A DNA stretch of 64,000 bases from Patiria pectinifera (lineage: Eukaryota > Echinodermata > Asteroidea > Valvatida > Asterinidae), in assembly GCA_029964075.1 (NCBI GenBank), contig CM057146.1:5909501-5973500 (forward strand), written 5' to 3'. Below, in pieces: positions 4,836 through 56,700 of this stretch. How positions within the stretch are numbered: position 1 is the stretch's first letter; every line of letters begins with the position of its first letter. Made by a program: the position numbers and the translations under genes. The notes under the pieces were generated by a model. It ran no database searches. It was not told where the DNA came from and saw nothing but the letters and a program-made list of their open reading frames with translations.

Positions 4836-12664
<7,829 letters not shown>

Positions 12665-29328: not shown

Positions 29329-29566
29329 AAATCAAATTCACCTTAGCGTCATGCGTGTTTACTTATCTGCCGTAAGCGGCGCCCTTACCCATAGCCCCAA
29401 TTCGATGACGTCATAGTGTTTCATAGGTCGCCGTACAAATAGAGACCTAGTGTCGTAACCATTGATCTCCATAGTATACACGGAGATCTATGGTCCTAAC
29501 TTCCAGACCACCGATGAACACATGCCCCGACGACAGCAGGTGGTTCTAGCAGATGTTTCTGAACTC

Positions 29567-29721
29567 ATGATGTACGTTTTATTGAGAAAAAAACGAAGAG
29601 TGCTCTTCATATTAATATTGACGGGCTGTTTAGGCTTGATGAATTTATACCGTGCATTGATCGGTGGCCAATACGACAGTCATCAACGACGGATATATCA
29701 GGAACGGACCTCTACACTCAG
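29567..29721 (+). CDS. ST8SIA: ST8Sia alternative first exon 1a (signal anchor)
   Basis: Encodes [11 protein letters not shown], a hydrophobic anchor [17 protein letters not shown], then a short stem ending ERTSTLR, with donor CAG|GTAAAA in phase 2. The frame is open further upstream, and an in-frame ATG at 29522 would add 15 residues, but similarity to exons 1b and 1c begins at MMYV/MYV. Joining to exon 2 (54268) keeps the frame. Confidence 0.8.
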
Positions 29722-32700
29722 GTAAAATTGCAACGAATATACACTCAACCAAAAAAGCCTCCCACTCAACACTTCTTTGTCTAACTCAAAAACTACTGGG
29801 CACATCTTGCTCAAATTACGACTGATCAGTATAGTACAGAAATTCTTTACCAATCCAGCCACATTCTCTATTTGGCCAAAAACAGTGATAATGTGTATTA
29901 TGCAATTTATGACAAGCGATACCGAAAACAGTTGCACGTTTGTATACGTGCAAGGTGAGTGTGAACCACAACTTGCACGTATACAAAAGTGCAACTGTTT
30001 TCGGTATCGTTTGTCATAAATTGCATAAGTTCGCACGCACACTGTTTTTGGCCAAATAGAGGATATGGCTGGAATACATAGGCCTATGTTTTTCTTAGCG
30101 CAACCTAAGCGACAGGCTTCCGCTGCATTTTGTGCAAAGCGGAAATAATCCAGAAAATCTCGAGCTCAAAAAAACGCACAATTTGTTTCCTTTTTTAGAA
30201 CAAATTGAAAGTTCATTATTCCTCTTTTAAATGATGTTTTTAGATTTTTTAAGACTTTTTAATTACTTTAAAGATCCGTCATTTTTCAAGTACAAACAGT
30301 CGGTATCTCAAATTTTACAATGCAAAAACGATGCTCACGAAGAATCCTGTCACACAACGCGGCTCATATGAACTCACAACTCTGGACGCACTCTACCGAT
30401 TTCTTTCGTTCGAGCTATAAAATAAACAGCATGAGATTGTCCAAAGCTGATGTAAAAATGAAGTTGATTGGCCAATGTTAAAGCCCGTCCATTTCAGCCT
30501 AAAGTTTTTGCGCTAATCAGAAGCGTTGTTTGAAACTGCATTGGAACGTGTACGATCAACAGATGATAAATCGACCTACTCCCATCGTTGTGCTGCCAAC
30601 TTGCTGTTTCTCTCCGGTAAGTTCTCCCCTTTACAATTCTTCAGGGACTCTAAAAACTATATGATATTCAAGCTTATAGTATAAAGATTTTCTGCATCTA
30701 AAAAAATATGAAGATACTTTATCAGAAGACATTGTAGCTGTGATGTAATTGTTGGCTTCTTATGCGATGGAAGCAGCTTTCTTGGCGCGCCGTGCGTGGC
30801 TTGAGCAAGGCACGCTGTGATTTCTGGCCAAGTCCACTTTTGTTTAGGGGTGATTAGACAGTGTTTGTACATGGGCGAACAATGGTGTGCACAAATTGCA
30901 CACGTTTTATTGACTAAATATTATTAATGTAGATATTTCTGTCATGTTTGGCAGCCCAGTTGAACTTGGTTGGAGGTATTAACTCAAAAAGGAACGCAAT
31001 TTACTGTTATGTTCATGTGATGGCCTAACAAGCTGAAGACCCGTATGCATTTTCTATGTTTAGAAAAGGAAAAAATAAAATATAAATGTTTTTTTAATTC
31101 CTTTCTTTCCTTATTAGAATCCGATGGAATTAAGGACGAAGAAAAAGATAGACTATTGTGCCCTTGACAGAGGTGAGCCCATCAAAGCTGTGGCGGAGAA
31201 GACGTGGCCAACAGCAAAAGCTGTGGTGATTTGAGACAATAGACCGCCCAATCAGAGGAAGTCAGAGCTGCCATATCTTTAGCCACATTTATCTCATTGC
31301 CAGAGCTTACTTTTTATGTTAAAAATCATGTATATGAATGTACACGTACGTATGTTAGTTGTTCCTGATAGCCATTGTAATTGTATTGTGTGTTTTGATG
31401 TTTTCACATTGTATGTTATAATTGTCTTTTATCCATACGCCTTGTTTGACGTGTGTGAAATAAAATAAAACAGGAATACATGTAATCAATTGATTTTTTA
31501 GTAATAAAGGAAGTCACCACATGTGTCGCCAATTGTTTATGCGGTTCAACAACCACTTCCTTATGCAGCCTACTCCCCCACCCCTGCTTCGAAAGTGGGA
31601 TATTCCATCAGCTCATTGCCCTTCTTCATGGAACGAACACCTTACAGACCTTGTATGAGATAAGGGCACACACATAACTCTATGGGCAGATGCACAGCAT
31701 TAATTTTGTTGAAGCATGGTTGAAGCTTCTTAAGTGTCGAAATTGACTTTGAGGAATTCATAATTTCTGTACTGCTTTAGTCGTTAGACTGCTTTAGTCA
31801 CATGTTTATTGTTCAGCGTTGGAATTGGAAATAAAGTTAAGATTGATTTATTGGTTATTTGAGCGAGAGGTGCTCAGTAGTTTTTGAGTTAGACAAAAAA
31901 GTATTGGGGGGGGGCTTTCTTTTTTGGTTGAGTGTATTACAAAATGTAGAAGTGGGCTAGCCTATAGTCATCTTGGGGTGTACCCGACTAAAGGTGTCTT
32001 ATATGTCGCATCAACATGGATTTGTTCCTTGAGATACACTATATTCCTCTTTGTCCAAAATCAGGGGGAAGAACGTTGCAACCTGACGCCACTGAACAGC
32101 GGTCGTGTACAAACTCTATGGAGAGTCAAGAACATTTTTTAAGTATTTCCTAACAAAATTGAAAATGTTTTTAAGTCCCAGATTCATGTTTTTTCATCAT
32201 TTTTGCAATGACTGACCTTCATTGAGATGATTTTCTGAAGAAAAAAGTGGCGTCAGGTTGCAACATTTTCCCCACCAAAATCATGAACGTGATTAACATG
32301 GTGGTCGGAGAAAGGGTCGGTTATAGGCAAGGAAACCTTTCTTTCGCTTGTGTGCATTTTTTGGGTCACGGTGGTTTGTCGTGGTGACGACGTATTCTCA
32401 ACCTAAGTAAAGATAATATAAGAAAATAATTAAAGTACAAGTGAGGTATGTCACTACACGTTTAAAATAATTTCAACGGTTACATACAATACAATACAAT
32501 ATAACTTTATTATCCCATTGCAGGAAATTCCATGGCCTTTTTACACGTTATTTGGTTTAAAACACATAAAAAGCACGAATGTAAAAACTACACAAATACA
32601 AAACTTAAAAAAACAAAATTAACTTATAACATCTGTCCGTAGGCAAGTAAGATATGTCAATTTACTGTGTACCTGTACTGTGAGATTAGAAGGTTTGCAT

Positions 32701-35700
32701 GGTGGAAAGATACCAAGACAAGTTAAGTCCGCGGTAGCACCACGTGAACAAATCTCCCCCGCGAGCACGTGTGGCTCCGAAAAAGAACCGGAGGGACCCA
32801 ACGCCCCGAACAGCATGCTCCGCCCGCCGTCAGGAAAATGTTCATTCTCCCGACGACAGGCAGAGCACACCGCTCGAAACACTAAGCCCCCGGCCCCCAG
32901 AACAAACACAAAAGAGACCCATCCACACGGTGCCACCGCAAACCCACACAAGGCAGCGAATTTGTGGTCACCCGGTCCTAGTACCTGTACTGTGTTATTC
33001 CTATTTGTTTAACAAAAGAACACGAACTTCGTCAAACGAACTTCGTCAACGGAGGATATTAAGGCCAACAAAAAAAAGTATCCGGTTTCTGGTATGGAGC
33101 TTGCCCAAAAAGTGGTGCGGCGACGCGGTTTTTTTTTTACCTGATTTTGTTTGCTTCAAATGTCGGCTGATGACTGCAAATGGTGCCCGACTAAACTTAG
33201 TGCAAATATATGGGAGTCCAGAGAGGCCACATAAAGCTTATTCTCGACCATAACCCAATCTAAAAACACGTTAAAATTGTGCAGCAGCAGGATTCCAGTC
33301 AAACCAGTGAGTTTGGCGGTTTTGAGACATCATCTTTTATTGAAAAAAAAACCTTTTCATTTTGCCGACGCGCATGGCTACGGCGACGCGCGCGCATACC
33401 AGAAACCGGAGACTTTTTTTTTGCCTAAGGGTTGCAATACAGCAGCTCAGAGTTCCAACTGCTCATTGTACCACCTGATAGCTGCTGGAATTGAGCTGCC
33501 ATATCGCGTAGTTCTTATCCTCCGTTGTAGAAGACGGTTACTTCGGGAGTTATGGACAAACTTTGTATGCAGCGGATGGCACCTGACATAATTAGTTGTA
33601 ATTTATTGCACATGTTAGACTTAAATAAGTCAATCAGTGGTTCCTGTTGATGGCCAATAATCCTAGCCCAAAATACATAGGGCTATTTTAGCTCGCACAC
33701 CCGCAGCGCAGAAACCCGCGGAAAGATGTAAAAATTAAGGAGTCCACTCATATGTCCGACGCGTCATAGGTCCGACGCCTCATAAGTCCGGCAAAATCGT
33801 ATCCCCCAACCAAATAAAGGCATAATAAGTCCGACGCCTCATAGCTTCGACGCCTTGAACGCTTCGTTTTTCCGACGTCGGACTTATGAGGCGTCGGACT
33901 TATGAGGTTTCGGACCGAATAAATAAATCGTATGCTTCATAAGTCCGACGCCTCATAAGTCCGAAATTTCGGACTTATGAGGCGTCGGACCCATGAGGCG
34001 TCGAACTTATGAGAGAGTCATTCTCTCAGAGGTTGGAGGAAACCCCGGTGCGGATCAAGCTTTCAATGTTGTTGTTTCGTCTGGTGCGGGTGTATCCCAT
34101 GCGTGCCGTTGTGAAAGGTAATTTTGTATAGCCCCCGCGGGTTTTTTTCTATCTGCAGCAGACATCGTCAATGATCAGGATTATTTAGCTATAAACGATG
34201 TTTATGTTCATACGAAAATAACAATAACGTCACACCATTGCTGTCACTCAGTCATGCATGTACATTGAAGCATTTCAAAGAACGGCTTTCGTCGAGCTGC
34301 CACAGTGCACTGGCCTATAGTGGATATAAGTACAAATGTAGCCGTATCTGTATCTGTATCTGTATGCTACTGCACAATCGCCTATGGTGGGGCTATGTAT
34401 ATCACGTGCAGGTAACGCTGTCATGGTGCTGATTGATTACTAAATTTTGAAGTGCGCATGGGTGGAAAATTGGCCGATATTTATCTTGTCTAGTTGGGTT
34501 TTGAAGGCGTTCAGTGTGGGTTGGTTTAGTAGCGTCAGGTAGGAGGTTCCATTCGGGGATTGTCCATGGGTATAGCGAGTGGGGATAGTTGTTTTTGTTT
34601 GACTAAATGCGTTGAAGATTTAAAGTGCTATTGGTTTGTCTGGTAGTATGTCTGGTGGTTGGCTGGTCACTGGGTAGATGAATTTGCAGGTGGGAGATAT
34701 TACTTACCAGATAGACTCCCAAGTACATAGGTGGTCGATGTCCTTTTGCAGGAGTTTAGAGTCCTCAGGAGACTTTATTTCCCGATCATCAGCAAAAAGT
34801 CTGCCGCATGATGATAGTTCGTTCGGCAGGTCGTTGATGTAGACTAAAAATAACAAGGGCCCCAGCACTGTTCCCTGTGGGACCCCGACACAACTGGCGA
34901 TGGTTGTGAAGATTCGCCATCAACGACCACTTTCTGAAGTCGTTTGGTGAGAAAGCAGTCAATCCAAGTATGAATGTTGTTCCGGATTCCTAAATGATTA
35001 AGTTTGGCCAGAAGTCTGTGATGGGGAACAGTATCAAAGGCTTTGCTGAAATCCATGATGATGAGATCCATTTGACTGCGTTTATCTAAGGTTATTTGTA
35101 GATCGTTGACAAAAGCTGCAGTTGTGTTTCACAGGACCTGCCTTTTCTAAAACCATGTTGTTGGTCGGCTAGAATCCCATGCTGTTCAAAGTGACCCATG
35201 ATATGTCCATGAATAATGTGTTCAAGGATCTTGCAGATAATCGATGTTAAAGAGACTGGGCGATAATTTGCAGGATCAGACCGGTCATTTTTTTGTAGAT
35301 AGGCGAGATGTTTGCAGTCAACCAGTCGGAAGGCAAAGTTCCTGTCGAGATGGATTTATGGAAAAGTTTCGTGACAGTGGAATAACCGCAAGATCTGTGG
35401 TTTGAACTCATGTTTCATCAAATATTTTTGTTGGTTGGGATAAGTTTAATTGAAGGGAAAACACTCCGAGAACCTAAGTGTCTTCCATCCACACAGCGTG
35501 ATATTCATGTAGGGTGCGTGATGTGATTGGTATGCTGCAAAAAAAATACGCGTCCCCCTGGTAAGTTTCCCCCGGACAAAATAATTCACCTTGCTAACTA
35601 TAGTTACATACTAGGGGAATTTAGTTGCATACCTGAGTAACTGGAATTGGGTGCTTTTGGATGGAGTGGGCATGTATGGGATGTGATGACAACGGATACA

Positions 35701-38700
35701 ATAGTGTGACAGGTGTATAACTATTAGGCTAATCCATGTCCAGCACTTACGTGGATTAGCAACTTACTGTGTATTGTACAATTTAACCTTCAATGGGGTC
35801 GTATGTATAAAAACTAGCATTTGCTTTTACTACCCATTTTTAAGCATTTACTTGCATTTGTATGAATAAAAATGAAGCAAATGCTTTTACTGGAAAGCAT
35901 TTGCTGAAAGCTAAAAGTATTTACTTTTTACTTGCTAGCTTTCGCTAGACTAGAAGTGTTTACTTCATTTCGTGTGAATAAAAAGGAGTAAATGCTTCAG
36001 ATTTCAAGCATTTACTGGTCATTTTTCAAGGCTGGGTTGGGGCAACCTTAAAAATATAAAGCAAATACTTCTGCGCAAAAAACTGCTGCATTTATTAATA
36101 TTAATCACCTAAGTGTCTTCCATCCACACAGCGTGATATTCATGTAGGGTGCGTGATGTGATTGGTATGCTGCAAAAAAATACGCGTCCCCCTGCATTTA
36201 TTAATATTAATCACCCCAAAATTTACACAAAACGTTAATAAACTACATATAATACCATACACTGTATTTTAACTAACATTTATGCGCAATTTTTATTATG
36301 TATTTTATTACTAGAATTAGAAACGATAATTTCGCATTTTGTTCACGATATGAGAAGTGTTAGCGTAAAATTCAGTGCGGCACAGAATGATTAAGGATAC
36401 ATTTTATCCAACGGCACCCTGGGGACTGAACAAAATGAAATCATTTGTTTAGTTTATTAGGTCACCAATCTTTGCAAACTATTATTGTTTTAATATTTCA
36501 ATAAACAGAACTCTTTGTGTATCGAATGTTGGTATCATTTTACCCACTTTAACACGTCTGTGATTTTTATGCAATTGTGACGTCTACAGGACACTGTGGA
36601 CCTTTACAATTTTCATGAATGATGAAAGTATACTTTTTGTATTCTGCAACTGCCGAAAAGTGTCATCATGTTTGCTGGATTTGAGGATCAAAATGTATGT
36701 ACTACTACATGTACTATATGCATCACCTTGATTTGGACTATTACACCATGTGTAAACCCTGTGTGTGTGCGTGCGGCAGTTCGTACACACAAAAGAAACC
36801 CTATTGTTGGCAATCATTCGTCCATGACAACAATCCAACAGTAAGAAGCATTTGCTATTTGTTGTCTAGTAAATGCTGAGCAGTAAAGACAAACTTTTAT
36901 TCATACGAAATCAAGCATTTGCTTTTCCTTAATGCTTGAACTCCAAAGTAAATGCTTTTACTTTTTGCTTAAACTTCCTAGAATTTACTAGTTTTTATAC
37001 ATACGACCCACTGACGCCCCTATTAGTAAAAAAAAGAAAGAGGTAAGAAGTCTTATTTCCTATTAATTCGGGCGATTCATAATGCAAGTTTACCTAATTT
37101 GGATTCAAATTTTAATCCGCGGGCAATTTTTTAGTGTGACTCGACGCCATGCATGGGAACGATGTGAGATAACGATCGTCCCCATGGCGTCGAGCAGTAC
37201 ACCGTGATTACAATATGTTGAGAGAAACGCAAAATAACTGTTTGAAAGGAGGGTTGAACATAATAATTGGCAATGGACGTAAGACATTAATGAAATGAAA
37301 ACACCAAGTATATAGACGTGCATGATACAAATCAATTAGGCCGACATATTGAAAAACTAGCATTTGCTTTTACTACCAATTTTCAAGCATTTACTTACAT
37401 TTGTAAGAATAAAAATTAAGCAAATGCTTTTACTGGAAAGCATTTCCTGAAAGCTAAAAGTATTTACTTTTTACTTGTTAGGGCCTGCTAGACTAGACGT
37501 GTTTACTTCATTTCGTATGAATGAAAAGGAGCAAATGCTTCAGATTTCAAGTATTTACTGGTCATTTTTCAAGGCTGGGTTGGGGCAACCTTGAAAATAT
37601 AAAGCACATACTTCTGCGCAAAAACTGCTGCATTTATTAATATTAATCGCCCCAAAATTAAACAAATCGTTAACAAACTACATATAATACCATACGTTGG
37701 GTCGTATGTATAAAACCTAGCATTTGCTTTTACTACCCATTTTTAAGCATTTACTTGCATTTGTATGAATAAAAATGAAGCAAATGCTTTTACTGGAAAG
37801 CGTTTGCTGAAAGCTAAAAGTATTTACTTTTTACTTGCTAGTTTTCGCTAGACTAGAAGTGTTTACTTCATTTCGTATGAATAAAAAGGAGTAAATGCTT
37901 CAGATTTCAAGCATTTACTGGTCATTTTTCTAGGCTGGGTTGGGGCAACCTTGAAAATATAAAGCAAATACTTCTGCGCAAAAACTGCTGCATTTATTAA
38001 TATTAATCACCCCAAAATTGACACAAAACGTTAATAAACTACATATAATACCATACACTGTATTTTGAATAACATTTATGCGCAATTTTTATTATGTATT
38101 TTATTACTAGAATTAGAAACGATAATTTCGCATTTTGTTCACGATATGAGAAGTGTTAGCGTAAAATTCATTGCGGCACAGAATGATTAAGGATAAATTT
38201 TATCCAACGGCACCCTGGGGACTGAACAAAATGAAATCATTTGTTTAGTTTATTAGGTCACCAATCTTTGCAAACTATTATTGTTTTAATATTTCAATAA
38301 ACAAAACTCTTTGTGTATCGAATGTTGGTATGATTTTACCCACTTTAACACGTCTGTGATTTTTATGCAATTGTGACGTCTACAGGACACTGTGGACCTT
38401 TACAATTTTCATGAATGATGAAAGTATACTTTTTGTATTCTGCAACTGCCGAAAAGTGTCATCATGTTTGCTGGATTTGAGGATCAAAATGTATGTACTA
38501 CTACATGTACTATATGCATCACCTTGATTTGGACTATTACACCATGTGTAAACCCTGTGTGTGCGGCAGTTTGTACACACAAAAGAAACCCTATTGTTGG
38601 CAATCATTCGTCCATGACAACAATCCAACAGTAAGAAGCATTTGCTATTTGTTGTCTAGTAAATGCTGAGCAGTAAAGGCAAACTTTTATTCATACGAAA

Positions 38701-41700
38701 TCAAGCATTTGCTTTTCCTTCATGCTTGTACTCCAAAGTAAATGCTTTTACTGTTTGCTTAAACTTCCTAGCATTTACTAGTTTTTATACATACGACCCA
38801 CTGTATTTTTAGTAGTTTGCGAAATTTAAATATTTTTGTACCATTGCTTTCATTACTAGAAGAAACGATAATTTCGCATTTTGTTCACGATATGAGAAGT
38901 GTTAGCGTACAGTGCGGCATAGAATGATTACGGATACATTTTATCCAACCACACCCTGGGGACTGAACAAAATGAAATATTTTTTTAAAGTTTTTTTAGG
39001 TCACCAATCTTTGCAAACTATATATTTTTTTTTTTAAATATTTCAATGCACAAAAGTATTTGTGCATTGAATGTTGGTATGATTTTACCCGCTTTAACAC
39101 ATGTCTGTGATTTGTATGCAATTGTAACGTCTACAGGACACTGTGGACCTTTACAATTGTCATGAATGATGAAAATATACTTTCTGTATTCTGCAACTGG
39201 CGAAAAGTGTCATGATTTCTGCTGGATTTGAGGATCAAATGTATACAATGTACTGTGCATCACCTTGAATTGGAATATTACCCTACGTTTAAACCCTCCG
39301 TGTGTGTGGCATGCAGTTCGTACACACAAAAGACACCCTACTGACAACAATTCGTCCATGAAAACAATCCAACAGTAAGAAGCATTTGCTACCTGTTGTC
39401 TAGTAATTGCTGAACAGTAAAGGAAAACATTTATTCATACGGAATCAAGCATTTGCTTTGTAGTCCAAAGTAAAGCTTTTACTTTTTGCTTAAACTTCCT
39501 AGCAATTGCTAGTTTTTATAAATTCGACCCACTGAATCAGATCTCCCGTGGCCAACTTCCGTTGTGCCTTGCTGCCTAGCACGTTTGTTGTTCTGTTTAT
39601 TGTATTATTTTATATACCAAATACGTAAGGAGGCTATCTGCCAATATTGTTTTCTGTTCGATTATCTGTTTTTCCCGAAATCGCATTCTTTTCGATTATT
39701 TTGGTTACAATTCCATTGAACTTCGTGTTGTGTGTTAATTACATGTTCTCCTGTTTTCAGTGTTAAGTTACAATAGATCCGTCAGATTTAAGACCCCCGT
39801 ACCGTGTAGCACCTTTAGTTCTGAACGACACCTAATGGAAGGATTCCTAATGTATTGCTTTAATTAGCCATGTTTAAACAGGAAAAAATGGAACCCATGA
39901 TGAAAGTTATAGAGCATTGTTTGCCGAACTGATTTTTTTTTTCCCCTGCAATAACATGGCTAATATTATTAAGTACTAAATTAGTAATCCTTCCATATAT
40001 GTGTCGTTTAGAACTAAGGGGGTTACAAGGGAGTCTAAAATCCGATGGATATTTAACACTTATTTCGAAAATCTAAATATGCAATAGGCCTTTTCCACGC
40101 TCAGTGTTTTACATACATGTACATGTACATGTACATTGTACATCTCGTCGCCGCCAGCACTGGTCATTCACCCATGGTGGAGAATGGTATCGCCCTATAG
40201 ATACGTACAATGATAATGAGGTTGCCATTATCAGCCAACCTCCCTGTGCAGCCAGTAAGGTCAAGAATATTTTCTGAGACATGAAAAAACTGGCAAACGT
40301 TTCCATGTACATGTACATGTGCATGACAACGATGATAGCCACACATGTACAATATTTAAGCATGTTTCCTGGCTCTGTGGTATAGGCTTGCACAGATTGA
40401 AGCACCGACTGCGGCAAAAGGTTTTGGAAGAAGATTCCCTTTCTCTTTGACAGTTTCAAAAGATGTACGTTTTATTGAGGAAAAAACGAAGAGTGCTCTT
40501 CATACTAACATTGACGGGTTGTTTAGGCTTGATGAATTTATACCGTGCATTGTGCTGTGGCCGATATGACGGTCAACAACGACGGATATATCAGGAACGG
40601 ACCTCTACATTCAGGTAAATAATACAACAATAACTATAGTATAGAATATAGAGAGTGCCAATTTTTGTTTCTTCGATGAAATTTTATATTACATTAAAGC
40701 CTGACTATTTCTCAATTTACCCCGTTCCATTTGGGTCCATAGATCCGGAAATACCATAGTGGAAGGGTGTGTGATTGCCTATTCAATGCCTATTTCTCCG
40801 GCATGATAGCCTTAGGGGCGGATTTAGCGGATGAACACCGTGGCAATAGAGCAATGGTGGTTACATACCGTCACGTGCTCATGTATCCGCTGTGCTTACT
40901 TATCCTCAGGCTGGGTTCCGAGGTATACTGCTGACACTGAGCACAGTGTTTCACTGAAATCTTTGGCCAACTAAATATAGACCTTCAATCCCGGTACAAA
41001 CCGTTATTTCGTTTTACCGTTTTGGATTTCCTCAAAAACAAAAACAGTAAACGACGAACCATTTACTATTTTGTCGTTTTATAATTACATTTTTGTAAAA
41101 TGGTCTAACGTATTCAATACTGACCGTTTTGCTGTTTTTCAAAGTTATTTGTGTATAACTGTAAAACAAAAATCATTGATCCTTATGCTGTAATGGATTT
41201 TGCTAAACTGATATAACGGAATAACCGTATTTATCTTAATACCGTTTGACCGTTTTACAAAACTGTAAAACGACAAAACAGTCAATGGTTCGTTTACTGT
41301 TTTCGTTTTTGAGTAAATCCAAAACGGTAAAACGAAATAACGAATTAACGGTATTACCTACGCATACCAACCAGGAGTTGCTCAACTAGGTCTAACACTG
41401 CCCCCCCCCAAAAAAAAAAACCCATTAAGAATACTTAATAAAGATTATCAAAATATTATTTCATTGTTGAAAATGCAAAATTGTCAATCAACAAACTACA
41501 AAGTAATTCCTAAACATGCCTTTTCCCTATGTATTTAGGGCGTTATGGGTACTTTTTTTTGGGGGGGGGAATACATGTATGTTGTCAATCACGGCCTCAA
41601 TGTATGCGCGCTTGCGGCCGCCCATTCAAAATGGCTCTCAATTCCATTGGAGGATCGGGACAAAATTCCGATAAACTAGTTGTTTAAATCAAATTTTTAC

Positions 41701-44700
41701 AAAGCAAAGAACCAAGACTTTTACAAAGATTTCAATTTAACTTCGCGTTTAAAATAAATATGCTACACAATATCTTTTTTTAAATTTGTACATCAATTCA
41801 TAGAGAACCTTTAATCAACAATACATGTATATTTGCCAATCAATTCAGTTGATATGAGTGGGTAGACTGTCAACTCCCCACAGGGGCGGCGGAACTGGGG
41901 GGGGGGGACTTGCCAACAAAAGTGTTCCTCTCGCGGTTATAAATGTGCCCCCCCCCCCCCAGATGAAAACAAAATTTAATCCTTCAAACGCACACAATGA
42001 AAGCATATGATCGCGCTACAAATAAAATTGTCTCCTCTCTTGTAATGGAAAACTGCCCCTCAAAAAACACAAGTGCCCCTCTCGCATTAACAAGATTGTG
42101 CACCTTCTCGAGATGGAAAACTATACCCCTCGAAAGCACAATTGTGTTAGTGCCCCGCTTGCAACATTAAAATTGTGCCTCTCTCATGGCAAAGTGGCCT
42201 ATAACAGTGCCCCTCCTCACGCGAATATAGAATGGTCACTGAGCTGGCCATCAAAAGCAAAAGTGCCCCTCTCGCGACAAAAAAAAATGGTTTCTCTACA
42301 TAACTAGTCAAATTCGTGGGCGGACCCACAGGGGTTACTGCCGGGGGCGGAGGGTGTGCAGTGTACCAGGGGGGGGGTCAACGCGCCATGCCTCTCCCCC
42401 CAAAAACCCCCACTAAACCCAATTTTTTTTAGTGACGTCGCAAAAAAGGGCAGCCACTACGTACGCCACCATCTTTTCACCAAAATTGCTTAAAGTGGTC
42501 AGAAATTGCCCTAGATCGCACCACGGAGCATCTAAATCATTTTTTCTTCTACCGGGCCCTTAATCGGGCCCCGGACCCCACGCTGTAAATTTGTGGACCC
42601 ACTTTTTGGACACCAACGGAAGGTGCCCCTTTTTTCTGGATAAGAGCCCCTTTTGGGTGTTCCCCCCCCCCCAGTTTGAAAAGCGTTCCGCCGCCCCTGA
42701 CTCCCCCACATTTAAATAGAACATAAAATAAAGAAATAAAGACCATCAAAAAATACTTTAAATGAGACGATGGCTTGTTCTGACACCCCCCCCCCAAGTG
42801 CTATAGGGAAGAAAACACAAACCAAATAGGGAAGCTGTGTGTGAGGAGAGGCAACTAGTGCTTCAAAACCATATAGCTGCATAATACAGCTCTATGTAAA
42901 AAAAAAACATCTTCATCTTTTAAGGTGGTGTTATTTCACCCTGTTCCTTTCATCATGAATTGAAAAAAATACTTATGTACGATGCAACAAATAATGTTGC
43001 TTTGAGTTGAGTGATAATGTGTTTACAATATTATTGTACCAGCACATATATAAGTTGACTTTTTACAGTGTTCGTAACACTTTATGAAAACAAAATTCCC
43101 TGACTCCTCTCCAAAAGTCCAAAAGTGGTATTGTTTCTGAGACATTTCCAAAATTCCCTGAGAAATATTTTTACTTTAACAAGGTTGCTGAAAAGACAAG
43201 GTTGCTACAGATAACATTCACCCTGCGTAAACACTACAAAATAACTACTCCCAAAGTCCCACGTCCTAATTCAGCCAACATAAATCTTCCATCAGACGCA
43301 ACTGCAAATAAAATTAATGACAACCCCTTTACTTGGCTGCCGACGTGCCAACGCCATCGAAGATCAGGAAGATCAACCAAGCGCGCGCCGCGAAAATTCC
43401 GGATTTGACTGGTACCCTGTAACGTCAATATCCTATGATCTTACGTGCACCAGTACAACCCCATAGAACTCAGCACACATTGGGTGCGTTCGTTTTGCTC
43501 ACCCGGCTGGGTCGACACGGGTCGTCCCGTGCCGTTCGATTAGCGCTGACGTCATTCTCGGGGCTCACCCAGGCCAAGTTCGGGCAAGGACCATTAGTCG
43601 ACTAGTGGTTGATTTGTGACGTACCTTACGCCTGCGCACTGATAGCAACGTGCGAACGTCTCTAGTCAAACGCTGGTCAATGGCAAAACGTCTGGATCCT
43701 GGCTCTCTGCTAGCGTTATGAATGCGCTCGGCTATTGGTTACCAGCGAAGCAACCAACCCCAGTAGGCTGGTTCCAAATAGTCGACTAGCGTAGTCAACC
43801 ACCGTTGACTAGACAGAGTTCGGGCAAACGTTAGTTAACCATTGGTCAACTATAGTCCTTGCGCGAACTTGGCCGATGTCAGCCACCACAGACCCAACCT
43901 CGTCCCCAGGGTGTCGAACAGTACGCGCCCATCACTACCTGCTCTCTCACCCTGGTATTGGATCATTTGCATGTGCAAGATTTTTGCACACGTATGCAAA
44001 TGATGACTAGTGTGGTGCCTTGGATATGCTTTACATTAGCGTTTGTTTTTGTATGCGGTGTCTGGGGTAAAAACAGAGTCAATTCGTCGCAGCACGAGCA
44101 CGGCGTGAGTTACGAAAACACGATTTTTAAAAATTAAACTGTTACGATCTTATCGAGACAACATGCAGTATCACATTTCATATTAATATGAACAAACTGG
44201 AAAGGAAATTAGTATTTTCGAGAAGGCGTGGACGAATGATCGCGAAAACACGTACTGCGCGTTGTAAATAATAACACCAAGTACACGATAAAAATCCATT
44301 ACTGGCCAATTACGGTATCGAATCAGGATACAGGAAGAAAGTTTCCTATCCAGGGCTTACTATTAGAAACGAGGTTGGAAATAAAGTAAGCACTGGGGAC
44401 GAGGTTGCCACAGACCCTGCTCGTGGAGCAGAGTCACCGGTGGAAGTTACGTCACGTATCAGCGTTGTTCATTCCCTAGAAACGGACAAGGAGTTCCAAA
44501 GAGATATAACACGTGGGAAACAGCTATACAATAGGCCTTTTGTTGTTCCACATCTCGGCATGGCACAGCTATAGTGTATGGGTGAGAGGAAGCAGAGAGC
44601 CTGGTTGCATGCTCAAACACCCTGACAGGAGGAACCAAGTCAAACAAACTGCTGGAACAATGTCCATGGAAACGGGACTGAGGGTGGAGTTTCGACCAGT

Positions 44701-47700
44701 AATGTAATAATTACCAATAGTGTACTACCGACCAGTAATGTTGTAAAATTCGACCACTGGTCTCAACAGGTGGCTACAAACCCACGGGTGCACGAAAGGG
44801 GTTGTAATAATGAGCCCACATCAACCAAACGAACGATTCGCTTCTGCACCCGAGATAAATGGCATTGGCAGGCAGAAGCTCCGGTCCATAATGTGGCAAC
44901 AGTACCCATCAGGGGACGTATGGTTGTCGTAATTATATAAGTACAGAATAGCATCATTAGGAGGTAACGTTTTGTGTTAAATAATTGACCCCAAGTTCTA
45001 TAGAACTAAGTAAATACAACCCAAGCACGGTCATAGGCCAACTGAGCTACCTTAGGTATATGGTTAAATTGACCCCAAGTTCTAAGTAAATACAGCTCAA
45101 GTGTAGCTTCATAACTGAAGCTTACACATTGACCCCAAGTTCTAAGTAAATACAACCCAAGCATAGCGCCATGGCCCAAGCTTGGGGTTAAATGTAATAA
45201 CCCAATCTGTTAGTCGGTAAAACTAAATTTGGTCAGTAACCCAAGCCTGGTTAAATTGACCCGGAAATTCTAACCCAAACAATTTGGGTGGGCGCAGCCC
45301 AAGTTTCGTTACAGTTTTCACCCTATATACATACTTGGCTTAAAGTTTACGCCATTTGGATTAAAATGTAACCCGGGCAGTAATGTTCAGCGTGCTCGAC
45401 CGGGCGCGTGGAGATGCGATAACCTCGTCCCCGTGGTGTCGAGCAGTACGCATTACAGTAGAGAAACGGAAAGTACTGTTTGAAAGGAGGATTGGACATA
45501 ATAATTAGCACTGAAGGTAAGACAAATGAAATAAAAAACACCAAGTATAGGCCTACACGATTCAAATCCCTTCGGCCTACATGATGCGGAATCGAATCGG
45601 AATACAAGAAGCAAGTTACCCTACCAGCCTTGATGTAGTGAGGTTCAAGAGTATGACCCTGGGAACGAGGTAGCCGTTGCGCTGGGGCCGAGATAAAGCA
45701 AACAAACAAATTCCAAATGCCGACTTGAAATCCGGTGTAGCGTGAATATCAGACTCCATGAAATATGGACTCGTTGGTAGTATTGCGCATGCGAAAGTAT
45801 GATAATAGCCTATAGACCTATAGGAGCCTGGTGAGTGACCTGTCACGTGCGAGGGATTAACCAATAATAGGGAAAATGAGTCCGATTTTCATAGGAGTCG
45901 GATTTTCATATGATATGACACCGGTCGAAGGGAATTTGAACTCTGTCACTGCTACCGTATTCTGTATAGTTCAATGCGGAGTTAATGGAGTCAATGCGAT
46001 ATGCGGTACATGATACGCGCAGAATTCTATATCCATGTATAACTTGCATCATTTTAATAATGAAAATGACCTCTCCGAGACAACGATGATAGCTAGACAA
46101 GTCATGTACAAGCTTGCACAAAAGCCCCGAAGATGGCAAAACATGTTGGCAGTTGATCCTGTTTCGCTTTGAAAAATTCATGATGCACGTTTTGTTGAGG
46201 AAAAAACGAAGGGTGCTCTTAATATTACTATTGACGGGCTGTTTAGGCTTGATGAATTTATACCTTACATTGTGCTGTTTATACGACGATCATCAAGTTC
46301 AACGATGGATATACATGTATCAGGAAGGGACCTCTACATCCAGGTAAATACATGTAATACAACAACAGCGGGCCTAGGCTCGCCATCTTGTATGTAGACC
46401 GGCGATCTACAAAGACTGGATAGCGTACAGGAAGCCGCAGAATGAAGCCATATTGGAGGGACAAATTAATAATTGCAGTCTTCATAGGCAGTTGTGATCA
46501 CGGTGTTCACTTTTGTAGCATTGTGGTTCCACCACTTCTGACCATGGTTCACGATTTTTCAAACGTCGTGGTCAGGTGTATAGGGCTACTTTTTGAATGC
46601 CGCCGTTCACTTTTTGCGACGTTTGGAAATACATATATTGTTGATGTACCCTAACGTGGCGCGGCCCCCAACGCGGCGCACTTTGATTTTTCGCCTGTAG
46701 CGCCTACCTAGAGCAAAAGTTTTAACTGAAATTTCACAGAAAGTGAAATTTCATCAAGTTCTAAACACTCCTGTTCATAAATCGCGAGTTCATTTACCCG
46801 TAACAAAGTTAGAAGAAAAATTTATTTTGGCGTGATTTTCCGATTTTATTTTCAAGTGCAAAGTGAACCCTTTGAAAATGCCCCGAAAAATAAGAAAATA
46901 ATTTTCTGACAAACATCTGGCTGGGTATGTAAGTAGAGATAATAATTATTTATCAGAATTTATCAAGTTTACAGAAATTCTTAAATGTTAATTTGGAATT
47001 TTCCGAGATTTATTCAAGTGCGCCACGTTAGGGAACACCCCGCCAATTTGTGCCCAATTTCCGGACGCCACCGTTTTTGAATTTCGGATTAAATTTCATG
47101 AAACCGAAATTGTTCACAGAGGTTAAATAGCAAGCATTAATAAGGTAAAAGTACCAGTATTTTACTGCATGAATTTGAGGTTTGTAAACAAAGAGGTTAG
47201 GCAACACTACACGAGGAAAGTCGGGTAAGCTTCGAAGTGCGCCACGTTAGGGAACACGACTATATATAAATCACGACGGAAACTTGTCCTTTTTTAGAAC
47301 ATCAGTGGTTATGATTTGGCGATAGAGTCCGAGTCGGAACCATTTATGGGACTCCAAATAAATCATCGCATACTCGGTGCCCTAAAACAGTCAGCCTATT
47401 ACCCTCAAAACAGACCCATCAAAATTCAGTCAAACTTTCAACATTAACACTCAACTAGAACGGCGAAGCCGCCATGGCTCGCTGTAGAAGGCGGGAAGGG
47501 AGGCTGAAGGTAGGGTTGGGGGTGTGCATGATGGGGATCAGGATTCTCGTTGATGTGCCAAGGTGAAGGGGTCAGTTTTTAAATGTCAACATAAAAAGTC
47601 AACAGATGACCTAATAAATACATGTGTATATATAGGTTAGCCGTCACTGCGTTATGGGAAGTTTTCCATTGCTAGGGTAATTAGGACCCAGTTGTGGAGC

Positions 47701-50700
47701 CTTTTTGCAGCCCCCACAGTGTCTTCAGGTCCCCATACTTGTATTACCATGGGAGAACTCTTGTGTAGTCCCCACAAATGCAGAACAAGAATGGGTATAC
47801 GTGTACATGTAGACACAGCACCATCACCACATGCCCCAAACATAATCCCCATCCCCCACCCGCCCCCCCACCCCAACCCCACCCAAACTCCAATCCTTAT
47901 CTCCTTCCCCCTACCCCAACCCCCTGCACCCACTTACCCTATCCTCCCCATCCCTCCTTACCCACTCCTACACATCCCCATCCTAACCCCTACTCAAATC
48001 CCTATATCCCGCCCACCGGCCCCATTCCCCCTACCCATATCGACCCATACATCCCCACCCGACCCCAACCCCTACTCCGATTCCTATATACTGCTCCCTC
48101 CCCTTACCCAGCCCCTACACCCACCTACCCATCCCCAACCACCCCTACACATCCCCACCCCAACCCCTTCTCAAATCCCTATTTCCCTCCCCCTCCCAGA
48201 CCCCCCAACCCTCCCCCTACCTGTCTCCACCCCATTTCCTTGAATTAAAAATCCTCAATAAAATAATGAAAATTACTGCAATGATATGAACCTAAGGCCT
48301 AAAAAAAAAGGTGTTATGTTGGCGTAACCCGACTGACCCTAAAAATGCGGCCGACCCTGGATATTTTTTTTTTTTGAAGGGAAGAAATATAATTAAAATC
48401 TATAGAAATGAATTTTAAATACGTTTTGAAACCATTTCTGACCGTTTCTCCTCAATTGTATGACGATAGCTCGCGTGGAACTTTGGAGTGCACAATGTTT
48501 TGCACCTTCCTCTCCATGACACAACGAACATGCAGAAGATCGCGCAGGCCTACAGGCAGTGCGCGTGCGGAGAGCTAGATCGATGCACCATGCATGCATG
48601 TACAGTACATGTATAGCCTCGTCCTCGACTGTTGCACGGCGCGAACTGCTACATACACTATTGAAAATACTTCGCTATTTATTCCATGTTAAAAAAATAG
48701 TTCATTATAATATAAATTATTTTAATTAATTTTCCACTATTTTACACGATAACAATTGATATATATTTATTCTAAAAATGGTAAACTATTCTGTAACCCC
48801 GGCGGCCGACGCGACCCGGCCGGCCCCCGGCCCGTGGTTACGCGCGTACGCCGTCACATCATGGCGCCCGGTACCGAAGCGTACAGTGTTTCCATCAAGG
48901 GCAAATGGGGATCTTCGGTCATTTTCGACCGTTTAATGCGGATAAATTTGAGTCTAGAGCTGGGGGTAATCGCCCAGAGCTGTGCCGATGGTGTAAAAGC
49001 GGGTTACACCGTACTAAAAATACAAACTTAAGGAAGGTCCATATAAAGATGTCGACGCAGATGAAACGGCTAACATTTTTGTCTGATTTTGGATTCCGCT
49101 TTTTGATATGTACCTTTGGAAAGGTTGATGATGAGTTTAAAAGTATACAAATATTGTGTGTAGCCTTGTTTTCTTTTGTTATCGTGTACTACTACCGGCT
49201 TAATGTCATTTTCGTTGCTGGGATAAAAAAAAACACACAAAAAAACAACCGACCTACCTACCCTATTTTTTTTGGCCCGTTACGCCAACATAACTTTTTT
49301 TTTGAAGTTATATATGTTATATAAGATGATAGATGTAAACTTCATTTAATTTTTTCCCCAAGTTAGCTAGAACCAAAAACTTCATCATTTTTATCTGAAC
49401 GCGGACGGCCGGACGGACGCCCGGACGTACGCCGGACGGACGGACGGACAGACGGACGGAAATTGGTATTACATAGGCTCGCATCTGCTTCGCAGCTCGC
49501 CAAAAATAAAAATTCACTGTTAGGCCAAAAAAAAGAGTCTCCGGTTTCTGGTATGCGCGCGCGTCGCCGTAGCCATGCGCGTCGGCAAAATGAAAAAGTT
49601 TTTTTTCAATACAAGATGATGTTTCAAAACCGCCAAACTCACTGGTTTGACTGGAATTCTGCTGCTGCACAATTTTAACGTGTTTTTAGATGGGGTTATG
49701 ATCGAGAATAAGATTTATGTGGCCTCTCTGGACTCACATATATTTGCACTAAGTTTAGTCGGGTACCATTTGCAGTCATCAGCCGACTTTTGAACCCCCC
49801 CCCCAAAAAAACCAGGTAAAAAAAAAAAAAGCCGCGTCGTCGCACCACTTTTGGGGCAAGCTCCATACCAGAAACCGGAAACTTTTTTTTTGGCCTTAGT
49901 TTTGACCAAAGACGTCAGTTATCGATAGCGATGGTTGCATATAGAGCGCCCCTACACAGTGTCTTCCTTTTTTACTTTCTCGCACTAACGTCTTGGGAAT
50001 CTTGCATTAATGGGGGCGTGGTCATTAAAATGTAAATACTGATATCTTCGAACGAAACAGCGGCTTCCAATGCACTATACGGGTATTCGCTCGCGACTAC
50101 CGTGGGCCCTATCACTGCGCTGCATATCGAATTAGCGCCCGCGACTGACTTTATAAACCGTTTCGCGATCGCTGATTGGTTCCCTGGTAAAACCTAGAGA
50201 GAAAATAAAGAAAAACTTACACGGCTACTACCAGATTCCCAAGACGTTAGTGCGAGAAGGCGAGCTGGTTCAAGCCTGCCGTTAGATCGATAACTAGCGT
50301 CTTACTCTTAGGCCAAGACTTATTCACTGTGTTATGCATAGGCAAGGGCGGATCGGGGGCCATGGCCCCCAAAAATAACCTAATAGGTTTTTTTTAAGTG
50401 ACGTCGCAATAAAGGCAGGCTCTGCGTACACAACCATCTTTTCCTCACAAAACATTGGACAAAGTGTTCAGAAAATTGCCTCAGATGGCACCACAGAAGA
50501 TCTAGAATCCATTTTTTTTCAGGGCCCTTAAGGGGCCATTCAGAATTTTCAATGTTTTAAAATTTCGACTTTTTTTCCAAATTATTTTGACCCACCCACC
50601 CACCCCTAATTTCGATTAATAAAAAACTGAACATGTACATGTACATGCACTTGCATGTACATGTACTTGAACACCATGTACATGTGTGTCTAGTTCAGTG

Positions 50701-53700
50701 ACGGCGTGAAGTTGTCGGTCTTCCTCGTTTGCATTGATGATATGCTGATATGCTGTTGGGAATGACAGGTTGCAGTTTTGGAAGCCACAAAGATGACCGT
50801 GGTTTTGTCGTTTTCTGTATGAGGTGGATGACATGTGACATACGAGGTTGTGCCTGTCACGTGAGGTAGCTGAGAAAAACATTCGCTCGTACCCCCCCCC
50901 CCCCCGAGCGAAAGAAAACATCAGGTTTGGGCAGACATCACATCACAGGCTGCGGTCCTCGTAGTCTTGGAGTCAAGTGGTTGAATAGTCCAGTTTGTAT
51001 AGGGATTGGATACACGTAGGCCTACATGACGTACACGTACAGTACACAGTGGCGTAGCCACGGGAGGGGGAGGGGGGCGTGGGGGGGGGGCGACAGCCCC
51101 TCCAGTCGCCCCCCAGTCGCCCCCCCCCCCCCACTGAGATTTTGAGTTTCTAAAAAAATTATCATTGATCTACATGACGCCCCCATGAAATGTTCCGGCC
51201 CCCCCCCCCACTGAAAAATTCCTGGCTACGCCACTGGCCCCGGTTGACCATGCACACCATGCCTCGAACTATAGTGTGATCCGGTACACTCGCTGGCCCC
51301 GTCCAGCTGTTGCTTCCCCGTCACTGTAGCGGTCCGCTCCCGCTTCAGTCCGGCCGTCTATGCGAAGCGAAAGCTCGTACCGTGCCCACTCGGTTCAGCT
51401 AGAATCTTTGGCATACTTGGTTCCCCCAGTTAGTGTTGTGAGACTCCGACACCGGTCTTGAAACCAAGGAAAAGCCTGACGTTGGAGGAATCCCCACGAA
51501 GTTAAACAAACCAGTAAAGTCACTGTGTGAAAGCTCTGTTTGATTCTAATATAAAGTTAATGAACTAATGGGGAATGCAACAATTTCAGGAATGAATTGC
51601 AGGGCAGCTCCGTCGCACAGCCTTTAACGTTTCACCACTTGAAACTTAGAACTGATAGACACATGGATTACAAGATAAGAGAACTGTTCAATTGCCTCAT
51701 TGATATTCTCCGAAGTCACCGTGTTAAAATTAGAAAAAGTTTTAACTATGGAAGGTTGTGAATCTTTTCTTTCAAAACTGAGGGAGGAATTATTGCAGTC
51801 ATATTTATTCTATCGTCAATGTAAAATTGTGTCATTTCATTTTGTTCCCGGGTATTTTCTTGTTGTTTCTTTTGTGTGTGTATTTAATGTGAGTGTAGAC
51901 CTATGTATGTCAACTAGGCTGTTTGTTTTTATGGTTTGCATTTTTCTCTCTGAGGCTTTAAAAATAACATCTTCATGGATTCCCAGCACAACTCCTCACA
52001 ATAAGCCCAGTGTTCACAATATTTCTCGTTGTGGGTCTGAAAATGAAAATTGTCGGTTTGTGTATTATGAATATGATCAAGTGAAATTATTTATGCAGTA
52101 TTTTTTTTTCCATTTCCCTCAAAATTGCATATTGTAATATTGTACATTTTTATCGATTTGCTAGAATATGTGATACCTCACCAACAAGTATCTTTTAACG
52201 AAATTCAATCAGAATATTTATCAATTTTTAAAAAAAAATTTAGTTGTTGTGTTACTTGTTGGTGTCCCTGCCACACTGTACGATGGCGTAGCCGTGCGTT
52301 ACTTTCGTTTTGACGGGGTTTTTACTGAATAGAGTCTGGTGACTGTACATAGAAATTTCTTTGAATAAAAGTCGAATCATTCATTCATGTGCACTTGTTA
52401 TGCAAAGCAGGGGCAGTGGTTCAAGGATATCTATGTCGACGTGCAGAAAGTGTGCAAGAACGCGACTTGAATGCTTTTATGTGTTCACAATACAACGACG
52501 CTGTCTAGTTATTTCACTGTGTGACACAGTGAGAAATTTTGGAATCATAATGGCGTCAGCGATACTTGCTGGGGAAATCTTGCGTACGACTTTCTGCACT
52601 TTGGTACTTTTGTTTCCAGGACAATTGTGTGTACGGTAACCCGACGTACCCAGATTTTTAAAGACGAAATTGCCGACCTCAAACTTGTTAGTGCCATATT
52701 TGGCAACTATATGTGCGTTATTAGTTAAATTAAACAAATGAACAGGTTTATTAAACATAGTACCATTGAAGGTACCTAAAAGTAAACATAACAGCATAGA
52801 AGACCGACAGACGAACATGAAATATTACAAAATAAACATATTTGTCTGGATAATTTTTTAGGGCGTTACCGGCAAGTTAACACAAACTTGGTGTAAAATA
52901 GATCATGGGAGTTACTTTTCTTTGACTTTTCATACAAGTTTACATAAACTTTAACTGTATGACCTGCAGTGGCGTAGCCACGGGGTGCGTGGGGGCGACA
53001 GCCCCCCGCCATGAAACCTTGTTGCCCCCCAGCCGCCCCCCCCCCTGAGATTTTGAGTTTCTAAAAAATTATCATTGATCTACATGACCCCCCCCCAAGA
53101 AATGTTCCAGCCCCCCCCCCATGCAGCGCCCCCCACTGAAAAAAATTCCTGGCTACGCCACTGACAGTACATACAGGGGACGAAGTTGGAAAGAAACACG
53201 CAAAAGAAATATCGGAACGCTTGCGCGTAGTTCAGGCAAGTCAAAAGATCTATCTTTCTTTGTTTTTTAAAAATCTTTTTTCCCATGGAAAGTGAATTTC
53301 GATTTTCAATTATTTAGCTTGACCCACCCACCCACAATTTGGAAAAAAGATCGAAATTTTAAAACATTGAAAATTCTGAATGGCCCCTAAGCGGGCCCTG
53401 AACCCCATGCCGTGTTTTTTTCGACTCTCTTTTTGGGGACCAAATGTTTTGCCCCCCCCCCCCCAAAAAAAATCCGTTCTGGATTTGCCCTTGGTATAGG
53501 TCACAGGCTAGTGTCACACAACATTTTTGAAAAGAAACGCCGGTGACTGCAGTGACGACGGGCGCTCCAGCGACTCGACTCGACTCGACTCGATTTCTGA
53601 GGACCACTTCACCCCGAAATTTGTGAATTGTTATATTTGTAAACTGTGCATTTTCAAGGTATATCTTTGTGAATGCCGTATTTATATACAATAATAATAG

Positions 53701-56700
53701 CATTTTATTCGGCAAATTGACGTATTTACACACAATTACAATAAATACATAAAATTGGATATTAAAACAAAAGGATACAAACAATAAGAAACCAAGTAAA
53801 CACTACACACGAAAGACAGAACGTGGACAGTACAGGGCTGCCGAGGAGAAGAACAAAAGTGAAACAAAACACTGTCGCCAATAGGGCGTGTCTCTGCAAC
53901 CCTGCACAATGACAGACACATAACACAGACCAAGCACAAAACAATTAAAAATACCAAAATTGCACAAGGGAGGAAAGGTCCAAGGATCAATGGAATTCAA
54001 AAAATGGGCAGGCAGATGAGGCTAAGTAAAGGAAGTGGACAGGAGAACCGGTCAGCACAACAGAGGGAGTGAGACAGAAAAGGAGAAGAGAAGGGGGGGG
54101 GGGGTTTGAAAAACCCAAACAAACAAACAAACAAACAAACAAACAGGAAGGGGAGGGTTAAACATTAAACGAAAAAAGTTTGAATTTTCTACCAATGTAT
54201 TCTATTGGTAGGCCTACTCCAGTGTGTCAGAGTTAATGCTTGATTCATTTTGCTTGGGTATTGACAGGTACAGCGAGGCATCGACATCTCAGCCAATGAC
54301 GACGCCATTGGAACACGTCACTAAGGTAGGAACAGTTATGTGCCAATAGAGCTTGCTAGTTGACCTCACAAAGCTACGATATTTTACGAAAAATACAGCA
54401 CATTCGGGCACCATGTATAACTAGGATCTAAAACGTCTATGTATATCTTTTGGCATTTATTTTGTGTTCTGACTGCATGGGCCCGCCCAATCAAGGCAAT
54501 AAATGGGTGTTTCGAAAGAAAAGAAAGCATTGCAATAATTCACAACATATAAATATCACTGCCGCTGGAACAAACTTTTGCCAGGGGGCGCTGGAATTTC
54601 TAAAGGACGGACAAAATTAATACGAAAGCGGAGCGCAAAGCCCTTACGTCGTGGCTTAATTTGGAATATGGATGCTCTGTGGTACGGTGCAATCTGAGGC
54701 GATTCCTGGCCACTTTCTATTTGACTTTTTTAGCAAACTTTTTTGAGATTATAAAGTCAATTTATTTCACTATTTTGTTTAGAATATACTTTTGCTCCTA
54801 AAACGTTTAACTGTACTGAAAGTGGAGAACCCTGTATTTTTATCTCCATTTTTTGTTCCATGTAATTCTGGGGAAAAAATTGTATCATTACGCATAACAT
54901 CGCATGTAAATATTATTGTTGCAAGGCTGCTTTCTTGCATTTAGTAAATTCCTTCGTATCTGTTTTGTTTTATTTTCCGAGCCCTTACGGCGTGGGGCCA
55001 CAGGGCCAGGTGCCCGCTTTAAGGCCCCGAAAAATGTTGGATTCTGGATGCACTGTGATGAAATATACTGAAGCATACTGAAACTTATAAAACCCGAAAG
55101 GACGTTTTTGGGTTCAAGTTAAAACAAATGGTTCCATATTGGAAGTGGATGAATTTCTGTTCATAAAAATTTTCACATAGTTCTAACTCACCAAACGATG
55201 TAGCTCTCGTAACACTTTGCAGTGTTATTTGTTTGTTACAGGGAATGGCAAATGCTAAAGTCTAAAAGACCAAATGCACCGTTATGTTTATGATCGGTAG
55301 ACGGCAAGTCTGGGGCTATAGGCAATGATTTATCGGTCTACTGAGTTTTTATGAGGGAAACTTGTAGGGAGTAACAAAACCAACATGAATAGCTCTTTTA
55401 TTAAAACGAGACTACAATGGAATTGGCATAAGGCATGACTATTCAGCCCGTGGGGATGTGTGTTCACCTTGTACATAATGCTAGCAACGTCAATGAAACT
55501 TTTAAATGAAAAGAAAAACCGTCAGGGAAAAGGAATGAACTTGTGCCCCTATTGAAAGTGGCAAGCATAATAAACTTTGCCACCATTGTCATGGCCGAGG
55601 TTATTGCTTTCGGGTCAAAGTTTGCAGTGGCGGAAATATCATAGACATGTCATGATTTTAGATACAAGATTTGAGGCTTTGCATGGTGGGGTATCGGTAT
55701 CGTTTCGGTTTGCGTTAACACCATGTGGTAATAACTACTGCTTAGAAGATATTAGTTCTGAGAAGAACTTGTCCTGCTTATTATCAACCTTGCTAAGTAG
55801 TTTTTGTTCTGTTAAGAACAGTCCTGCTGTAAGTTCTATACGAACTTGTCTTTGGTCTCAACGTTTCGACTAACCTGCTCTAGTCATCGTCAGGAGACTG
55901 AAGATAGTTGGAGATGCTACTCCTTAAGTAGGATTTGTTTGATTTTAGATACCTTGAGAGAAATATCGATTCTGCACTGCCTGAAGATTTAGAAAATACC
56001 TCCTCTTGATATTTTACAGTGTTCGTGCACGACGTTCGAAGCGCCGCGCTTAGCCGCGGCAAAAGTAGAAACGATTGAAACGAAGGAGATATTTGTAGAG
56101 CAAGCATAATGTATAGCGTAGCGGCGTAATTTCATCGTCGTAGAACACTACTGGCTGGAACACATTTTTGCCCGGGAGTAGGGGGTGCTGAAGCATATTC
56201 CAACACCCCAATCCAAAAAGTTGGGGGTGCTGCAGCACCCACAGCACCCCCCGTTCCCGCGGGCTTGAACATAATTGAAAATATTGCGAATTTGGTGACT
56301 ATATTATAACATTAAAATTGTTGACTCAACTTCCGTTCAATCGATCAAGCAGATTGGGTAAATTCAAACACGGAAGTCTGTGACTAGACTAGTCAGTGTT
56401 TGGTAACTTTGGTCCTAAGACGTAATGCACATAAAAAGAGAACGTGGATTGGCGAGACTTGCATACGGGGTGAGGCAAATAGAAATTGACCTGGATAAAC
56501 GATTTTTTTTCTTCAATTTTTTGTATCAACTTTTAAAACCAAATAATAAAGTATATACAGTCGAACCCTGATAAGAAGAGCACTGTTAATACAACATCCT
56601 GCTTATAACAAGCAAAACTTGAGGTCCCTAGTCTTACTTTTTCTTTGTTTTCCAATACTGTTAAAACAAGGTACCTGTTATAACAAGGTAATTTGTAAAG

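Follow-up and report, generated by a model that had tools for sequence, protein, structure and literature searches.

Three homologous candidate first exons precede one set of downstream exons in a predicted ST8Sia-like sialyltransferase gene of Patiria pectinifera

The subject of this analysis is a predicted sialyltransferase gene found in a 64,000-nucleotide stretch of the 613.5-Mb genome of the asteroid Patiria pectinifera. This stretch, referred to below as the window, corresponds to positions 5909501-5973500 of contig CM057146.1 (C18); coordinates follow the window numbering unless C18 is stated, and the exons, the exon flanks and the repeats adjoining exon 1a all lie on the plus strand. 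The exon models were built from the genomic sequence, by eye and with a script. Three coding exons able to open the gene were located at 29567..29721 (exon 1a, 155 bp), 40463..40614 (exon 1b, 152 bp) and 46180..46343 (exon 1c, 164 bp). Exons 1a and 1c start with ATGATG and exon 1b with a single ATG, preceded five codons upstream by an in-frame stop; all three end in phase 2 at CAG/GTAAA, the donor reading GTAAAA after 1a and GTAAAT after 1b and 1c. They are followed by exon 2, the first shared exon (54268..54325), and exon 3 (58267..58394), both encoding stem, then by exon 4 (59218..59340), exon 5 (60490..60640) and exon 6 (63588..63703), which carries sialylmotif L and matches PF00777. The gene runs past the window and was completed from 29.5 kb beyond it, where exons 7-9 were placed (C18:5974526-5974615, 5976558-5976808 and 5978843-5979060). 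From exon 2 to exon 9, the seven introns are all bounded by GT..AG, and the joining of 1a, 1b or 1c to exons 2-9 yields in each case one open frame, of 429, 428 and 432 amino acids respectively. The initial annotation had described three interchangeable first exons ending in the same phase and joining exon 2 in frame; their positions, open frames and homology are confirmed by coordinates, translation and alignment, and the shared phase, the donors and the in-frame joining hold as well.

Judged by similarity, the product is a GT29 sialyltransferase of the ST8Sia-like type. The 1b form matches Pfam PF00777 with E=1.1e-44 over residues 190-418, and the exons carrying sialylmotifs L and S, both recognized by their PF00777 matches, are exon 6 and exon 9. 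The nearest solved protein is ST8SIA3 (E=1.3e-36), two sequences of which score 129.4 and 128.5 bits, the other six of the eight solved sequences matched reaching 37 bits at most. The choice of ST8Sia over ST3Gal, ST6Gal or ST6GalNAc is based on this similarity to solved proteins and not on a tree.

The three first exons resemble one another to different degrees. Exons 1a and 1b are 92.4% identical over 158 columns (E=1.3e-63), 1a and 1c 80.2% over 177 columns (E=2.0e-42), and 1b and 1c 75.1% over 269 columns (E=2.1e-48). The significant match between 1a and 1b runs from one base 5' of the conserved ATG to GTAAA and then stops; these sharp edges are due in part to an interspersed repeat and a transposon that adjoin 1a. 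All gaps between exons 1b and 1c are multiples of three. For this last pair, the likeness noticed earlier in the 5' flanks (40326..40462 for 1b, 46080..46179 for 1c) and in the early intron was recovered by alignment, with 54 of 74 aligned flank bases equal, a score reached in none of 1000 shuffles. In the 120 bases upstream, the residual likeness of 1a to 1b has a score reached by 1.8% of 1000 shuffles, and that of 1a to 1c a score reached by 7.6%. A block of 14 bases, ACAACGATGATAGC, is present at equivalent positions 5' of both 1b and 1c (40326 and 46080) and nowhere else on the plus strand of the 93.5 kb searched; it is possibly a promoter element shared by these two exons.

Copy number was assessed by genome searches in which only the best candidates are scored. 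With exon 1c as query, three matches (1c, 1b and 1a), all at this locus, were found among six scored candidates. Exons 2-9 gave 109 matches among the scored candidates: the seven with at least 80% identity all lie within C18:5967764-5979057, that is, in this gene, and the remaining 102 are 29-74% identical. The PF00777 domain gave 142 scored matches genome-wide, two of which, the L- and S-motif exons, come from this gene. Relics were sought locally with tblastn and blastn under loose settings, in the 93.5 kb plus 10 kb upstream, and this area yielded neither a convincing fourth copy of exon 1 (best other tblastn E 0.052) nor a relic of exons 2-9 (best other E 3.8). The candidates for either, being only weak matches beyond the known exons, were rejected; the other blastn matches were stretches of 16-20 bases (E at least 0.007) and one 24-base match between the flanks of 1b and 1c (E 0.026). 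The assertion that only one close set of downstream exons is present is thereby upheld at the genome level. Since this one set is accompanied by three exon-1 matches and by no local relic, the sequence data support a single gene body to which three homologous first exons belong. As for a separate gene owning 1a, one open frame, for a 2OG-Fe(II) oxygenase, was identified upstream, no systematic search having been made.

The reading that we favour, with moderate confidence, is a variable-first-exon array with three promoters, comparable to GCNT2 and UGT1. In the ST8Sia-like gene, three variable first exons arranged in tandem would precede eight constant ones. Every first exon would most likely possess its own promoter, and transcripts starting in 1a, 1b or 1c would be spliced from the CAG/GTAAA donor to the acceptor of exon 2. 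The predicted products are three type II enzymes that have one catalytic domain in common, are almost alike in tail and anchor, and differ in an upper stem of 20-25 residues. Such an array would have originated through a tandem duplication that was partial and involved the region of exon 1, its copies having since been held by selection, perhaps with the help of gene conversion that acted between 1a and 1b and was limited to the exon, and its role would be regulatory, promoter choice being likelier than Golgi placement. The computed basis of this reading is the homology of the exons, their open frames and donors, the single close downstream set and the better conservation of exon than of flank.

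The most serious alternative, already envisaged in the initial annotation, is that only one first exon is used, perhaps 1c, the nearest to exon 2, or 1b, and that the others are undecayed relics of a partial tandem duplication. We consider it rather doubtful. The shared flanks of 1b and 1c do show a segmental duplication, and repeats lie close to 1a on both sides. However, frames, starts and donors are intact in all three exons, the gaps of 1c are in frame, and the exons differ less than their flanks: 12 of 150 exon bases against 16 of 62 aligned upstream bases for 1a and 1b (Fisher p=0.0013), and 23 of 147 against 20 of 74 for 1b and 1c (p=0.049). This contrast and a clock provided by a transposon are signs that the copies are kept rather than decaying.

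The repeats in question are the following. Upstream of 1a, part of an interspersed repeat (29360..29457; 38 matches including itself, its upstream end not having been sought) ends about 109 bp before the ATG; its other 37 copies are 76-97% identical, and two of them run past 29457, the longer to 29478. Downstream, a palindromic transposon with inverted ends, similar to a miniature inverted-repeat transposable element (29740..31936, with a repeat search of 29740-30140 only), begins 18 bp into the 1a intron and presumably contains a nested insertion. It was probably inserted after the split of 1a and 1b, because the 1b intron lacks it. In an alignment of 19 copies, the private branch of the transposon beside 1a is 0.092 (tree) or 0.072 (star estimate) substitutions per site. 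Five indels are private to this copy, and one of these lies close to where the aligned stretch ends. The own branch of exon 1a, calculated by hand, amounts to about 6-7 substitutions, or about 0.044 per site, and the exon has no stop and no indel relative to 1b. For a simulated neutral exon, the joint probability of remaining as unchanged as 1a with the frame intact was 0.0065, 0.0006, 0.024 and 0.0036 under four settings, the share of in-frame indels being assumed to be 25%; these values are approximate because the draws for the substitution count were made apart from those for the frame test. The clock predicts more change in a neutral 1a. For 1c, the probability that 20 random substitutions (a count made by hand) leave the ATG, the GT and the absence of stops all unaffected is 0.17, and with two or three in-frame indels added, at assumed chances, about 0.003-0.02.

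Several points weigh against the three-promoter array. The comparisons with the flanks rely on alignments that are locally optimal, and the tests as a whole are not independent of one another. Over the whole exon, dN/dS, estimated on 49-50 codons with few changes, is 0.58 (1a/1b), 0.81 (1a/1c) and 0.48 (1b/1c), values not far under 1 that would suit relics as well, and purifying selection over the entire exon is not proved. In the stem the ratio is 2.32, 1.18 and 0.52 for the same pairs, two of the three exceeding 1, and the stem changes between 1a and 1b number seven nonsynonymous to one synonymous. With whole-exon ratios only as low as 0.48-0.81, the use of all three first exons is therefore inferred, and we regard it as probable. 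The branch of the transposon may include divergence from before its insertion, and with two indels instead of five and the lower of the two rates the joint probability is 0.024. About 109 bp of non-repeat sequence is all that is left upstream of 1a, which may therefore have lost its promoter. Finally, weak acceptor-like sites are found before 1a at 29507 (score 6.5) and before 1b at 40454 (score 4.9) and 40396, so that an unseen leader exon is possible for these two. Restricted to tail and anchor, dN/dS falls to 0.09 (1a/1b), 0.45 (1a/1c) and 0.41 (1b/1c); the purifying selection that the initial annotation proposed to look for among the exons is thus apparent mainly in this part and not over the exon as a whole. 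In sum, the sequence supports a single gene body preceded by three homologous first exons, and the contrast of exon and flank together with the transposon clock makes relics less likely.

It is quite improbable that the likeness of 1a and 1b results mainly from gene conversion of the exon, limited by missing flank homology, instead of selection on each isoform. These two are the closest exon pair, yet the better flank is common to 1b and 1c, and their synonymous divergence is the lowest (0.126, against 0.216 for 1a/1c and 0.298 for 1b/1c). This value nevertheless comes from four synonymous differences over 34.5 sites, a number too small for a test of conversion; the repeats flanking 1a can account for its lost flank, and conversion alone does not keep frames open. 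A still fainter prospect is that 1a and 1b are inclusion variants spliced after unseen 5' untranslated exons, with translation starting in the included exon. The first exons of variable-first-exon clusters are expected to lack a usable acceptor, and the scores of the sites at 29507 and 40454 fall in the range (-0.1 to 12.8) obtained by leave-one-out scoring of the eight real acceptors of this gene, which formed the training set. Against this, no acceptor-like site exists within 150 bases 5' of 1c (best -4.4), the training set has just eight sites, and 69 of the 1452 AG sites in window 29000-58000 score at least 5, so that such sites are common. An assembly artefact, in which duplicate haplotypes were placed in tandem, is hardly credible, as it has in its favour the presence of similar copies and nothing more, against flanks that are almost wholly different, exons 8-16% apart at aligned bases plus gaps, and repeats specific to 1a.

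The initial annotation had also supposed that variation of tail, anchor and upper stem would change the placement of the enzyme in the Golgi. The upper stem does differ, but placement by tail and anchor fares poorly, an identical residue being encoded by all three exons at 24 of the 29 tail-and-anchor codons. The shared N-terminus, M[YH]VLLRKKRR, leads into a hydrophobic stretch whose best 19-residue mean is 1.82 in 1a, 1.53 in 1b and 2.12 in 1c; 1b falls slightly below the usual mark of 1.6, and no stretch above 1.6 occurs past residue 60 in any of the three products. Variation is found mainly in the 20-25 lumenal residues of the upper stem, where 1b and 1c, not 1a, have a Cys-Cys pair. Nonsynonymous changes between 1a and 1b affect 1 of 67.5 sites in tail and anchor against 7 of 48 in the stem (p=0.008), and those between 1a and 1c 5 of 67.5 against 13 of 47.5 (p=0.008); for 1b and 1c the difference, 6 of 67 against 9 of 47.5, is not significant (p=0.16). 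Changes concentrated in the stem, with tail and anchor nearly alike, count against a varied address. Distinct Golgi signals for each exon were considered and rejected, as comparison of the tails by eye revealed the same LLRKK and the same basic membrane-proximal stretch in all three. LLRKK fits (F/L)(L/I/V)XX(R/K), a yeast pattern set out in PMC8840164, as well as the basic membrane-proximal rule of PMC8421267, a study that identified no obvious motif common to the sequences; the LLRKKRR common to the tails agrees with the retention features of both papers. A possible exception to the near equality of the tails is an in-frame extension of 1a read from the translation (29522..29566, 15 codons): an ATG at 29522, 45 bases 5' of the start, would add MPRRQQVVLADVSEL, the longer tail beginning with MPRR. 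No such in-frame upstream ATG precedes 1b or 1c in the translations. A more specific form of the three-promoter array, to which we attach little likelihood, would have the constant tail and anchor and the diversifying stem tune enzyme partners or cleavage and not address, conversion keeping the rest alike.

The locus is likely a further case of a gene organization already known. In GCNT2 much of the lumenal domain is encoded by the first exon, and in UGT1 the first exons provide the acceptor-recognition domain along with a signal peptide. In the present gene, unlike in both, the part encoded by the variable exon is limited to tail, anchor and upper stem and does not reach the catalytic domain, the sialylmotifs being encoded by shared exons and the family being GT29. 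GCNT2 (IGNT) of human, mouse and rat has two constant exons preceded by three variable first exons, which lie in tandem and are highly similar; each first exon contains a transmembrane segment, has a distinct promoter and is separately spliced, and the variable polypeptides have six conserved cysteines (PMC1885805). The present gene is likewise a glycosyltransferase gene with three similar tandem first exons and a constant set, here predicted from sequence, and it shares with UGT1 the tandem variable first exons and single constant set (PMC1885805). In ST3GAL5 (GM3 synthase), also a sialyltransferase, a single catalytic body is combined with several N-termini, and its localization reportedly depends on the tail (2009 study as cited in PMC10243808 and PMC8840164). 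Its isoforms, however, are translated from one mRNA by use of three start codons (PMC10243808), whereas the exons described here are homologous duplicates with nearly equal tails. B4GALNT2, another Golgi glycosyltransferase with isoforms, has a long and a short form sharing the transmembrane and lumenal domains (PMC9959560), in contrast to three homologous exons each with its own anchor. In the ST8Sia family, to which the GT29 domain and the best solved relative, ST8SIA3, point and which includes the sea urchin and amphioxus ST8Sia EX, tandem gene duplication has been described (PMC2564942); those duplications concern whole genes, and here only the first exon is multiplied. No homologous first-exon array in a sialyltransferase appeared in the titles and abstract openings searched, subscription journals being mostly outside that scope. 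The variable/constant organizations of Ugt1, Gcnt2 and Ugt2a have been called vertebrate-specific (PMC1885805). If all three exons are used, such an arrangement would have arisen independently in an invertebrate, in a simple form made of a duplicated promoter plus anchor exon with catalysis unchanged, and would offer a natural test of upper-stem function in a Golgi enzyme.

Other elements were noticed during this analysis. Between 1a and 1b, window 35800-39540 contains long similar blocks, with ends like GTGGGTCGTATGTATAAAA and its reverse complement (by eye), which look like copies of one transposon. The oxygenase frame mentioned above occupies window 4836-5672 (278 codons; PF13532, E=2.8e-8, 34.6 bits for a cut-off of 31.2) and presumably resembles ALKBH5. 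Elsewhere in the genome, PF00777 exon matches are dense at C1:15.02-15.15 Mb (14 of the 142 scored) and C11:13.19-13.26 Mb (12 of the 142), which suggests tandem arrays of whole sialyltransferase genes.

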